A stretch of DNA of 64,000 bases, taken from Mucilaginibacter yixingensis. GTDB taxonomy: Bacteria > Bacteroidota > Bacteroidia > Sphingobacteriales > Sphingobacteriaceae. Made by a program: the position numbers and the translations under genes. The DNA lies in contig NZ_CP160205.1 in assembly GCF_041080815.1 (NCBI RefSeq), positions 4,960,001-5,024,000 on the forward strand. The letters run 5' to 3'. The notes beneath the pieces were generated by a model, which had not been told where the DNA came from, searched no databases, and saw only the letters and a list, made by a program, of their open reading frames with translations. Of the stretch, positions 44,587 through 47,689 are shown piece after piece. Within the stretch, counting starts at the first letter, position 1. Every line of letters begins with the position of its first letter.

Positions 44587-44696
44587 CGTTTTGTCATTGC
44601 GAGGAACGAAGCAATCTCGTCGAAGGACGATCCAATTTGTATGCCAACTATATGCGACGAGATTGCTTCGTCGTTCCTCCTCGCAATGACAAAACG
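44587..44696. repeat. Palindromic intergenic element, family A (GAGGAACGAAG sub-type)
   Basis: TGTCATTGCGAGGAACGAAG at the left and GTTCCTCCTCGCAATGACA at the right, with GCAATCTCGTCG / CGACGAGATTGC inner arms; the complementarity extends about 5 bp past the TGTCAT unit (44592-44691). The arms match the elements at 45882 and 46373. Confidence 0.85.
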
Positions 44697-44749: not shown

Positions 44750-45856
44750 ATGTCCGATACCGCCATTACCGTAGTCAGAAAGATCATCCATATAGATATG
44801 GATGCTTTTTACGCGTCGGTAGAGCAGCGGGATAACCCGGATTACCGGGGCAAACCCATTGTAGTAGGTGGCCTGCCCGAAGGCCGGGGCGGCGTAGTGG
44901 CTACTGCCAGTTATGAAGCGCGCAAGTTTGGTGTGCGCTCGGCCATGCCGTCTAAGAAGGCTAAACAACTTTGTCCGCAGGCTATTTTTGTGCGGCCACG
45001 GTTTGACGCTTACAAAGATGCCTCCCGGCAGATCCGTGAGATCTTTAGCCGGTATACCGATCTGATTGAACCCCTCTCGCTGGATGAGGCCTACCTGGAT
45101 GTTACCGAAGATAAACTGGGCATCGGCTCGGCAATTGAGGTGGCTACTCAAATTAAACAAGCCATTAAAGATGAACTGAACTTGACGGCATCTGCTGGTG
45201 TATCTATCAATAAGTTCGTCGCCAAAATTGCGTCAGATATCAATAAGCCTGATGGATTAAAATTTATCGGTCCTTCCTCTATCGAGGCCTTTATGGAGCA
45301 ACTACCGGTAGATAAATTCTACGGAGTAGGCCGGGTAACGGCCGACAAAATGAAACGCATGGGCCTGCATACCGGCGCCGATCTGAAGCGGCTGACCGAA
45401 GACGAAATGCAGCAACACTTCGGCAAGGTTGGTCGTTTTTACTATCGCATTGTGCGCGGCATTGACGATCGCCCGGTAAACCCACACCGTGAAACCAAAT
45501 CGCTCGGTGCCGAAGATACTTTTCCGTATGATCTCACCACTGCGGAGGAAATGTTCCCCGAGTTAGAAAAAATTACCAAAACCGTCTGCGATCGCCTGGA
45601 GCGTTACGGACTGAAAGGCCGTACCATCACCCTCAAAATAAAATACAGCGATTTCCGTCAGATCACCCGTAACCAATCTTTTCCTCATCCGGTCGGTGAT
45701 GCTGAGACTATTATTTCTACCGCAAAAAGCCTGCTGCTGGCCACCGGGATTGACGATGTGCGCATCCGTCTGCTGGGTATATCCTTATCAAACTTCGGCG
45801 AGGTAGAGCGCCCGTCATTGATTAAGGGGGATAGTAATCAGTTGCGGCTGTTTTGA
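44750..45856 (+). CDS. dinB: DNA polymerase IV
   Basis: A Y-family translesion polymerase. 368 residues: catalytic acids in HIDMDAFYASVE (Asp-16) and SLDEAYLDVT (Asp-112, Glu-113), YEARKFGVRSAMP finger, two HhH motifs (KFYGVGRVTADKM), and the little-finger domain (RTITLKIKYSDFRQITR). The C-terminal QLRLF is a beta-clamp binding motif. No LexA box can be recognised upstream. It is monocistronic, with family A elements on both sides. Confidence 0.95.
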   Translation: MSDTAITVVRKIIHIDMDAFYASVEQRDNPDYRGKPIVVGGLPEGRGGVVATASYEARKFGVRSAMPSKKAKQLCPQAIFVRPRFDAYKDASRQIREIFSRYTDLIEPLSLDEAYLDVTEDKLGIGSAIEVATQIKQAIKDELNLTASAGVSINKFVAKIASDINKPDGLKFIGPSSIEAFMEQLPVDKFYGVGRVTADKMKRMGLHTGADLKRLTEDEMQQHFGKVGRFYYRIVRGIDDRPVNPHRETKSLGAEDTFPYDLTTAEEMFPELEKITKTVCDRLERYGLKGRTITLKIKYSDFRQITRNQSFPHPVGDAETIISTAKSLLLATGIDDVRIRLLGISLSNFGEVERPSLIKGDSNQLRLF

Positions 45857-45881: not shown

Positions 45882-46002
45882 TGTCATTGCGAGGAACGGC
45901 AAGGGAAGTGGGGTGGGGTGACGAAGCAATCTCGTCGGAGGGTAGTCAGACATGCAAATTCGTCTAGCATGCGACGAGATTGCTTCGTTCCTCGCAATGA
46001 CA
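45882..46002. repeat. Family A element left of the GIY-YIG gene
   Basis: 121 bp bounded by TGTCATTGCGAGGAACGG and CGTTCCTCGCAATGACA. The left arm has an extra stretch (GGCAAGGGAAGTGGGGTGGG) not seen at 44592, and a near copy of this extra stretch occurs in opposite orientation in the element right of the GIY-YIG gene. Confidence 0.85.
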
Positions 46003-46026
46003 AAGTTTTGTTAGTTTTAATTGAGA

Positions 46027-46329
46027 ATGATAACAAACATCCATCAATATAACGTCTACATAGTTACCAATAAGGCACACACCGTTTTTTATGTTGGCGT
46101 CACTAGCGACTTATTCACCCGAATACTACAACATAAAAACAAAGCCTATCCAGGATTCACCGCTAAATATGAATGCCACAAGCTTGTTTACTTTGAGGAT
46201 TTTCAATGGATAGATCAAGCTATCGCCCGTGAGAAGCAGCTAAAAGGAGGCTCGCGTCAGAACAAGATAGATCTAATTGTTAATTCCAATCCAGATTGGA
46301 AGGATTTAAGCAAAGACTGGTTCGATTGA
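46027..46329 (+). CDS. Small GIY-YIG nuclease
   Basis: 100 residues from the ATG at 46027. It is a stand-alone GIY-YIG domain: the first strand pair VYIVTNKAHTVFYVGVTSDL (Tyr-11, Tyr-22, Gly-24), the catalytic Arg-33 in TRILQHKN, the metal Glu-69 in AIAREKQLKGGSRQNKI. GIY-YIG proteins of this size (UPF0213-like) are abundant in Bacteroidota, with no proven target. The gene is framed on both sides by family A palindromes whose outer arms form a longer inverted repeat, an arrangement of a mobile unit. No HTH or other DNA-binding extension is present. Confidence 0.88.
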   Translation: MITNIHQYNVYIVTNKAHTVFYVGVTSDLFTRILQHKNKAYPGFTAKYECHKLVYFEDFQWIDQAIAREKQLKGGSRQNKIDLIVNSNPDWKDLSKDWFD

Positions 46330-46372
46330 TTAGCTTAAATCAAGAACTATATTTCTACTATTATTAAAACCT

Positions 46373-46490
46373 TGTCATTGCGAGGAACGAAGCAATCTCG
46401 TCGCAAGCCAAGTGGATATGTACCCGATGATCTTCGACGAGATTGCTTCGTCACCCACCCCACCACCCCTTGCTGTTCCTCGCATTGATA
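46373..46490. repeat. Family A element right of the GIY-YIG gene
   Basis: 118 bp starting TGTCATTGCGAGGAACGAAG and ending CTGTTCCTCGCATTGATA, a decayed ATGACA end. The right arm carries ACCCACCCCACCACCCCTTG, the inverse of the extra stretch in the left-hand element. The rest of the 295-bp gap to fecR has no recognised feature. Confidence 0.8.
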
Positions 46491-46624
46491 AAGTTTCGTT
46501 GATTTTAATTCGCTCATAATCAATCCCAATGCATTAATAATAAAATTTTTCTGCCCTCCGCGTAGGGGGTACACACCAACTCGCACGTCATACCTTTTTG
46601 TAAACCGAATTATATTCCTCCTTT

Positions 46625-47689
46625 ATGAAAAATCCGATATCCATTGAACTGCTGGAGAAGTATGTTAATGGGCAGTGTTCTGAAGAAGAAATGGCCATTG
46701 TTAAAGCATGGTATTTCTCGTTCGATAAAGAGCAAGACCCCATCCCATCGCTCAGCGTGCCAGAAGAACAGCAACTGGAGGAAGCGATTTACAATCGGAT
46801 TCTACACAACATCGGCATGTCTGAAGAGCCGGCAGAACCAGATCAGCCCGAAACTGCAGATGATCGTGTTTACGAATTACCTGCCCGCCGCCGCTTTAAA
46901 GCCTGGTATGCGGTGGCCGGTATTGCCGCTACGTTATTGGTTGTTTTTAGCGTGTGGCTGGTAAACTTCAAAAACGGCGGTGTTTTGATGGCCGACCGTA
47001 GCCAATCGTCAGATTTAGTGGTGATTAATAATGACGGCAAGCAACTTTATAAGGCTACCCTGCCAGATAATAGCGTGGTATGGCTCAGCCCGGGTGCGCA
47101 GTTGCGTTATCCAAAAACTTTCGCTGCCAAATATCGTGCAGTGCGTATGAACGGCGAGTGCTTTTTCGAAGTGACCAAAAATCCAGGCAGACCGTTTATT
47201 ATCAGCAGCCATTCTATCATTACCAAAGTTTGGGGTACCAGTTTCCGCGTGCGCGATGATGCCGCCAGGCATTGCTGTGCCGATGTATCGGTAGTGACAG
47301 GCAAAGTATCGGTAAGCATTAAAAATGCCGATAGTGCTGATGTTAACCACCTGGTATTGAAAAAGGGCGACGTAATGCTTTATCCTCACCAGCGCGTGGT
47401 TTACCTGGCCGATAAAAATCAGCTTCGTCCGGAATTGAGTAGCAACGAGCCTGCGCTGCAGATCTGGAATCGCGTAAACCTGAATTTTGAAAATAAACCG
47501 TTGAGCGAGATTGTACCGGTGTTGAACGCGCAGTTCCACGTAAATATTAAAATGCGCAGCGAAAAGCTGAACCATTACATCCTGAATGCCGATATGGAGG
47601 GCTTTAACCTGCCGGATATACTGGAAGCCTTCAAAAAATCACTGAATGTTGATTACCAGATGAAGGATAACAACATTGAACTTGAATAA
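46625..47689 (+). CDS. FecR-family anti-sigma factor
   Basis: 354 residues: a short cytoplasmic N-terminal zinc-less anti-sigma region, one membrane helix (about 90-112, AWYAVAGIAATLLVVFSVWLV), a FecR domain (about 125-240, LPDNSVVWLSPGAQLRYP, RMNGECFFEVTKNPGRPFII, TKVWGTSFRVRD) and a C-terminal DUF4974 (about 280-353). It should relay the signal from the STN domain of the SusC protein to an ECF sigma factor. The sigma gene that usually precedes fecR is not here; a GIY-YIG gene with repeats occupies that position. Confidence 0.92.
   Translation: MKNPISIELLEKYVNGQCSEEEMAIVKAWYFSFDKEQDPIPSLSVPEEQQLEEAIYNRILHNIGMSEEPAEPDQPETADDRVYELPARRRFKAWYAVAGIAATLLVVFSVWLVNFKNGGVLMADRSQSSDLVVINNDGKQLYKATLPDNSVVWLSPGAQLRYPKTFAAKYRAVRMNGECFFEVTKNPGRPFIISSHSIITKVWGTSFRVRDDAARHCCADVSVVTGKVSVSIKNADSADVNHLVLKKGDVMLYPHQRVVYLADKNQLRPELSSNEPALQIWNRVNLNFENKPLSEIVPVLNAQFHVNIKMRSEKLNHYILNADMEGFNLPDILEAFKKSLNVDYQMKDNNIELE

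Follow-up and report, generated by a model that had tools for sequence, protein, structure and literature searches.

A stand-alone GIY-YIG nuclease gene bracketed by REP-like palindromes in Mucilaginibacter yixingensis is a candidate partner for dispersed hairpin repeats

The 64,000-nucleotide stretch of the Mucilaginibacter yixingensis chromosome analysed here (contig NZ_CP160205.1, positions 4,960,001 to 5,024,000; hereafter the window) contains a small nuclease gene framed by palindromes, and raises the question of whether the nuclease and the repeats around it belong together. A precedent is provided by the REP/RAYT and REPIN systems, in which GTAG-tagged REPs are paired with the tyrosine HUH enzyme TnpA-REP. 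From the comparisons described below, we consider it probable that a single system is made up of the GIY-YIG nuclease together with its cognate REP-like repeats; the RAYT-like pairing of the two is strongly supported as an association, and we infer that the enzyme may mobilise or spread the repeats.

An overview of the locus is given in Table 1, and several patterns emerge. First, the gene and the two palindromes flanking it are present as set out in the preliminary description, and the bounding inverted repeat that was put there at about 55 bp corresponds to the outermost arms and measures 57 nt (45884-45940 and 46432-46488, 84% complementary, with 491 nt between). Both of these arms carry a G-rich extra stretch that is missing from the copy at 44592, again as described. 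Secondly, three of the four arms flanking the gene have the tag TGTC and one has TATC, and the window arms have a 5-bp stem with loops of at least 10 nt. Thirdly, both gene-flanking palindromes fold strongly as DNA (z-scores in Table 1), with single arms folding no better than their shuffles (z -0.8 for the short arm and 0.5 for the long-loop arm). A 16-base arm pattern with up to three mismatches has 12 matches in the window, some of them to other arm types, compared to 0.49 expected from shuffles, and a 17-base arm core has six compared to 0.06 expected. Single three-mismatch arm matches at 2457, 4302, 6332, 16065, 43439 and 61687, with the stem types GCCGAG, GCTGAG, TTTCGA and GTTGAG, are further repeat families of the same kind. 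A search of the 44592 palindrome against Rfam gave one weak match under the gathering score, which we regard as chance.

Table 1. Features of the GIY-YIG block and its surroundings, in window coordinates
Feature	Position	Strand	Remarks
Stand-alone GIY-YIG nuclease gene P0001, 100 codons	46027..46329	+	PF01541, E 3e-14
Upstream palindrome, two inverted GTC-hairpin arms	45882..46002	.	Inverted repeats I4, I10; DNA fold z -9.2
Downstream palindrome, two inverted GTC-hairpin arms	46373..46490	.	Inverted repeats I6, I12; DNA fold z -8.1
Outer left arm, long-loop form, TGTC ATTGC ... GCAAT C	45882..45931	+	57-nt inverted repeat with outer right arm
Inner left arm, short-loop form	45978..46002	-	
Inner right arm, short-loop form	46373..46397	+	
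Outer right arm, long-loop form, tag altered to TATC, one stem mismatch	46441..46490	-	
Third palindrome, same family, 5' of dinB, without G-rich extra stretch	44592..44691	.	Inverted repeats I7, I11
Context: dinB-type DNA polymerase gene	44750..45856	+	IMS domains
Context: fecR gene, no preceding sigma gene	46625..47689	+	FecR domains

The P0001 gene has PF01541 (GIY-YIG) as its sole domain match, and contains no HUH or Y1 transposase domain and no known transposase domain; a DDE- or HUH-type transposon is therefore ruled out. Residues Y11, Y22, R32, H36, E69 and N88 are conserved in the alignment with relatives, and across 65 of these, ten alignment columns (including Y11, E69, K73 and N88) are invariant and Y22, G24, R32 and H36 nearly so. 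The nearest solved folds to an AlphaFold2 model of P0001 (pLDDT 94, pTM 0.86) are those of UPF0213, Slx1 and the UvrC N-domain, with which it has the GIY-YIG fold and catalytic residues in common. P0001 is without a match in NCBIfam, in PADLOC (no defence family) and in a phage search, has a single weak endonuclease match in PHROGs, and finds nothing convincing in a PDB sequence search. The protein is under purifying selection, as seen from the low dN/dS of orthologous pairs: the values are 0.05–0.13 in the five of ten pairs whose synonymous changes number 10 or more, 0.21–0.34 in three pairs with few changes, and undefined in two.

Relatives do not keep the gene order seen in the window. In 29 of them neither a GIY-YIG gene nor fecR was found beside dinB (1.5-kb flanks), and these relatives lack the junction at which the block lies. 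Because the order is not conserved, we rejected the reading of the GIY-YIG gene as a fixed part of a fecR operon. The gene had also been said to occupy the place of an expected sigma gene, and this is borne out: in three of the four FecR loci read in relatives (L282–L285, of 12) a 186–193-codon open reading frame lies directly upstream of the FecR gene, and no sigma gene is present in the window directly before fecR (46490–46625), so that P0001 occupies a position commonly taken by a sigma gene. Of these upstream frames, the two that were scanned are sigma-70-type and that of L282 was judged by eye; L284 has none.

Repeats of this kind are abundant in the 5.36-Mb genome, where a search for the 16-base arm, allowing no more than two mismatches, gives 154 matches on each strand, compared to one on each strand for the reversed pattern. 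A PF01541 search of the genome finds seven places, two encoding long proteins and five with short genes. The long proteins (L005 and L006, in 605- and 480-codon frames) have no GTCATNNYGA arms within their 3.2-kb loci. All five short genes have arms nearby, with a different arm type for each gene: TGTCATTGCGAG at the window gene, and TGTCATGCTGAG, TGTCATCCTGAGC, GTCATGCCGAA and TGTCATTTCGA/TTCCGA at the others, the last of these adjoining a shortened GIY-YIG gene with a 72-codon open frame. In 464 kb of the genome (20 stretches plus the window) the five arm words, counted without their leading T, occur 30, 14, 7, 6 and 9 times in that order, and their reversed forms 0, 0, 0, 0 and 2 times.

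P0001 has a match in 53 of the 60 genomes searched, its own included, and a scan of one genome per species yielded at least 562 relatives among at least 592 matching stretches. The best 80 of these, which we used, span Bacteroidota, Chloroflexi, Acidobacteria, Verrucomicrobia, Clostridia, Sphingomonadales and Patescibacteria, among others. In total 153 loci were selected by similarity to P0001, and because many are related they were also collapsed to 134 independent sites. The duplicate L105 (of L017) was removed before pooling to 153, and remains in the counts on 114 loci, i.e. those for the inverted-repeat test, the stem partner, the strict arms and the matching of sides; loci L068–L097 lie outside the analysed set. 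Many loci have one outward arm per side and others two or more, and the nested two-palindrome layout of the window block is not a special feature.

The flanks were compared without reference to any motif by aligning the 300 nt 5′ of each gene to the reverse complement of the 300 nt 3′ of it, and an inverted repeat was scored where the alignment exceeded the 99th percentile of shuffles. By this test, 73 of the 109 loci that were usable among 114 have an inverted repeat across the gene, compared to 41 of 327 mispaired flanks and none of 29 dinB genes. Forty further copies, 36 of them from the same genus, were picked without regard to their flanks, and 33 of the 39 usable ones are positive. No inverted repeat was found at any of 16 loci of another stand-alone GIY-YIG class of the same genus (118–121 codons), these sixteen being part of those among the matches listed. 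In the pooled set of 153 loci, 148 were usable and 106 of these have the inverted repeat; in 90 of the 106 both arms contain GTCA, for which the single-arm expectation at that length is 0.108; with ambiguous cases counted as half, its orientation is outward in 73.5 of these 90 and inward in 16.5. The outer span of arm, gene and arm has quartiles of 440–585 bp.

The repeat unit consists of (T/C)GTC, then a small hairpin of the form ATxyz-loop-z′y′x′AT, then C, and two units in inverted orientation make one palindrome. The search word GTCAT itself fixes the AT of the stem on one side, and an exact five-letter stem partner is present for 292 of 514 such words within 350 nt of the genes (with C next in 268 of the 292), compared to 56 of 275 words more than 700 nt away and a fraction of 0.18 after words and remainders were swapped between loci. 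The stem letters vary by family with complementarity kept, e.g. TGC/GCA, CCT/AGG, GCT/AGC, TTC/GAA, TCC/GGA and GCC/GGC.

A strict arm was defined as GTC, ATxyz, loop, z′y′x′AT and C, within 350 nt on each side; this test depends on the word GTCAT, whereas the inverted-repeat test is motif-free. Of 114 loci, 59 have strict arms both before and after the gene, as do 22 of the 40 further copies, compared to five of 353 control ORFs, all from this genome (one of 59 among those shorter than 150 codons), none of the 29 dinB genes and none of the 16 loci of the other GIY-YIG class. Pooled, the figures are 80 of 153 loci and 73 of 134 independent sites, the latter giving an odds ratio of 83 against the 353 ORFs (Fisher, p 7e-43). 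Either criterion brackets 120 of 153 loci (105 of 134 sites). The expectation that such palindromes flank these GIY-YIG genes far more commonly than other genes is thus upheld by all three control sets; the existence of GIY-YIG genes lacking flanking palindromes, named at the outset as counting against the idea, is seen in the 33 of 153 loci bracketed by neither criterion, a partial refutation, with the 120 bracketed loci standing on the other side. In addition, direct repeats are frequent around these genes, and direct copies scoring more than 100 flank the gene in 12 of 110 listed loci (L029, L030, L110, L111, L119, L137, L140, L146, L156, L162, L164 and L174). These are outside what a simple cognate-repeat model explains, and are possibly duplicated composite repeats.

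The type of stem follows the gene. Stem types are identical on the two sides of the gene in 52 of 59 loci, compared to 26.4 expected and no more than 35 in 2000 shuffles. On the enzyme tree, which is built from few columns and has 65 open forks of 117, the number of stem-type changes is 23, whereas 500 shuffles average 31.9 and never fall below 29 (81 labelled rows of 120, with stem types found at fewer than three loci excluded); in the cross-phylum set alone there are 18 changes, compared to 24.7 when shuffled, with a minimum of 21.

The number of repeats tracks the presence of the gene loosely. At the spacing searched, perfect TGCGAG palindromes are present in 36 of 60 genomes and perfect TTTCG palindromes in 22 of 60, with none for either reversed control. 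TGCGAG palindromes are commoner where a P0001-like gene of at least 95 bits is present (medians of about 9 and 2, p 0.015; 20 and 17 same-genus genomes, own included), although G017 has 90 of them without a close gene, and G023 and G030 have none despite having the gene; we regard the relationship as supportive and not strong. We note that at G031:C1:969960-970811 a GIY-YIG fragment adjoins four tandem TTTCG palindromes, which recur every 147 bp and apparently resemble one another over the portion listed. Short GIY-YIG genes also occur in tandem in relatives, with three at G028:C10:152974-153921 and two each at G015:C60:16831-17397 and G037:C5:13124-14007.

Presence or absence of the block at orthologous sites had been proposed as a check, and one such case was found, among Sphingobium plasmids. 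Between fnrL and a response regulator gene, seven records contain the nuclease gene (with a one-base deletion in TomTYG73), and five other listed records have both flanks with the gene absent. Four of the seven gene-bearing records were examined, and all four have one arm per side. The gene-free site holds one symmetric hairpin in TomTYG74 and TomTYG64 (in the latter GTCACCCCGGG-TCAAG-CCCGGGGTGAC), a different short hairpin without the tag in TomTYG65, other GC-rich inverted sequence in TomTYG72, and no recognisable repeat in S. herbicidovorans. Two histories would account for this: insertion of the gene into a repeat, or loss of the gene with its two arms collapsing into one hairpin.

Plasmid records with a P0001 match number 34, and of 12 loci examined, there are inverted or palindromic repeats both before and after the gene in ten, four of these ten being the same Sphingobium site. 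At the Rhizobium plasmid loci L179 and L189 a CTCATTCC palindrome is present downstream only. In Planktothrix (L183:1175-2091) a plasmid homologue has an MmeI-type restriction-modification gene on one side and the DISARM gene drmA on the other, among TGTCATTCTGAGT repeats. A Neisseria gonorrhoeae homologue with 42.6% identity, from a 2.17-Mb record labelled as a plasmid, is surrounded by GTCATTCCCGCG repeats; two N. gonorrhoeae records filed as plasmids, L178 (NZ_CP119140.1) and NZ_CP119142.1, are 2.17 Mb in size and evidently chromosomes.

Neither the Sphingobium site nor the comparison of G031 with G013 (91–97% identical) showed a target-site duplication, among the few clean sites that they offered. 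In the G031 and G013 comparison no clean empty palindrome site was found, the places that differ holding other repeats or unrelated sequence so that no duplication is readable, and a like comparison of the Novosphingobium pair L187 and L215 gave no clean reading. Among Mucilaginibacter relatives, one intergenic place can carry palindromes of different types, as if repeats had replaced repeats there. A rearrangement breakpoint between G031 and G013 (L218:11180-11244 compared to L279 and L280) falls in a short intergenic GTCAT-like stretch, with a TGCGAG palindrome on the G013 side. Orthologous copies of the gene are often at the same site in related species, and the gene is therefore not jumping freely. 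The RAYT-like role proposed in the preliminary description is partly supported: the association of enzyme and repeats stands, on the controls, the side-matched stem types, the enzyme tree and the presence/absence site, and movement of the repeats is a putative part of that role.

The observed bases for a single system are the association, the covariation of the stem, the matching of the two sides, the co-variation with the enzyme tree, purifying selection and one presence/absence site. As to mechanism, the enzyme most likely would recognise the tag and hairpin in DNA that is single-stranded or extruded, as in replication, uptake or repair, and may nick it there. The broken ends could then be healed with, or written into, another copy, and healing by strand exchange or copying would spread repeats or replace them; now and then the gene would travel with its arms, favouring places already holding a unit. 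By analogy, the system would work like REP/RAYT with an unrelated enzyme.

Some of these observations also suit other explanations. The layout of many loci, with a single arm facing outward on either side of the gene, the quartiles of the outer span, and the lack of gene and arms from five Sphingobium records would agree with an autonomous minimal transposon of about 440–585 bp, with the arms as terminal inverted repeats and the palindromes as miniature derivatives arising by internal deletion. We think this unlikely, given that no target-site duplication was seen, that a genome holds few copies of any one type, these often having orthologues in other species, and that GIY-YIG is not known as a transposase fold. 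A little less credible again is a homing-type gene, whose enzyme would cut a lone hairpin and so have the gene and arms copied in by recombination, the repeats spreading in some other way: GIY-YIG domains are found in homing endonucleases, and at two of the five Sphingobium sites without the gene a single symmetric hairpin stands in its place, but departure of the gene with collapse of its arms gives the same picture, the site is a single one, and the genome-wide agreement between repeat type and enzyme clade is left unexplained. The Neisseria enzyme Ssn, which is said to be a site-specific single-strand nuclease linked to transformation, and the repeats surrounding the Neisseria homologue would fit a view in which the enzyme cuts at the repeats to serve a different function (DNA uptake control, recombination or defence) without moving them, with the flanking repeats regulating the gene. 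We rate this as improbable; there is no match to a defence family, and it does not alone explain the replacement of palindrome types at one place. Finally, passive hitch-hiking, in which common repeats flank genes by chance or through a shared intergenic preference, is very improbable and is rejected on the controls, which are so rarely bracketed on both sides; the stem types, too, are matched between sides and specific to lineages. In its favour, 60 of the 353 control ORFs have an arm on one side.

The single system of nuclease and repeats that we prefer resembles REP/RAYT in having a single-gene enzyme flanked by its own tag-and-hairpin repeats, in the dispersal of these as inverted pairs, and in the matching of enzyme type to repeat type. 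It differs in that RAYTs are HUH enzymes with a GTAG tag, whereas the present enzyme is GIY-YIG and the tag (T/C)GTC; P0001 is therefore not a RAYT. A biochemical parallel is Ssn of Neisseria, a GIY-YIG enzyme that in a 2025 study reportedly cuts single-stranded DNA at repeated sites, and which the N. gonorrhoeae homologue noted above may represent. Ssn and P0001 are alike as small, single-domain, stand-alone GIY-YIG proteins, and the catalytic residues of P0001 are intact, although the repeats around the Neisseria homologue have a different stem from the window arms; Ssn would be the biochemical prototype of the present enzyme class. Leaving aside the extent to which the Ssn study covers this, no paper joining GIY-YIG enzymes with REPs was found among those listed in a search of mostly open-access literature.

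The repeats themselves have a published counterpart in the CGTC-tagged REPs, which include TGTC and CCTC variants and are described from five phyla, Bacteroidetes among them (Di Nocera, De Gregorio, Rocco 2013, PMC3733652). In the accessible parts of that description, these have A and T as the first two residues of the stem, which are complementary to the other side, and an unpaired tail starting with C, are mostly inverted dimers, comprise four families with stems of 8–9 and loops of 4–5, and have dRS3 as their Neisseria members (PMC3733652). The present repeats are alike in tag, stem AT, tail C and inverted pairing, and differ from these parts of the description in an exact stem of about 5 nt and loops mostly of 9–25 nt; because of these lengths they appear, by their sequence, to be a variant fitting within the CGTC-tagged superfamily and not one of the four published families. 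The same parts state that CGTC REPs "apparently lack a dedicated transposase", leaving the associated enzyme as an open question (PMC3733652), and a 2025 REP survey, in its accessible parts, is without the words nuclease, RAYT or transposase (PMC12306157). Set against these parts of the sources, in which no enzyme is reported, the present repeats bracket a GIY-YIG gene, and the GIY-YIG enzyme makes a good candidate for the partner that this known bacterial repeat family has appeared to lack. This candidate is specific, encoded by a single gene and easily purified, and the cognate repeat of each enzyme is predictable from the flanks of its gene, so that the question of an enzyme for CGTC REPs becomes testable with oligonucleotides. 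It is quite possible, and we put it forward tentatively, that the CGTC REP superfamily is mobilised throughout Bacteria by GIY-YIG enzymes, its missing partners; they would form a second and independently evolved REP-spreading machinery, on a nuclease fold that is not known to act as a DNA transposase, with its specificity read from the GTC tag and the covarying stem. If so, many dispersed hairpin repeats of environmental bacteria would be explained, and REP/RAYT-like systems would have arisen at least twice with unrelated nucleases.
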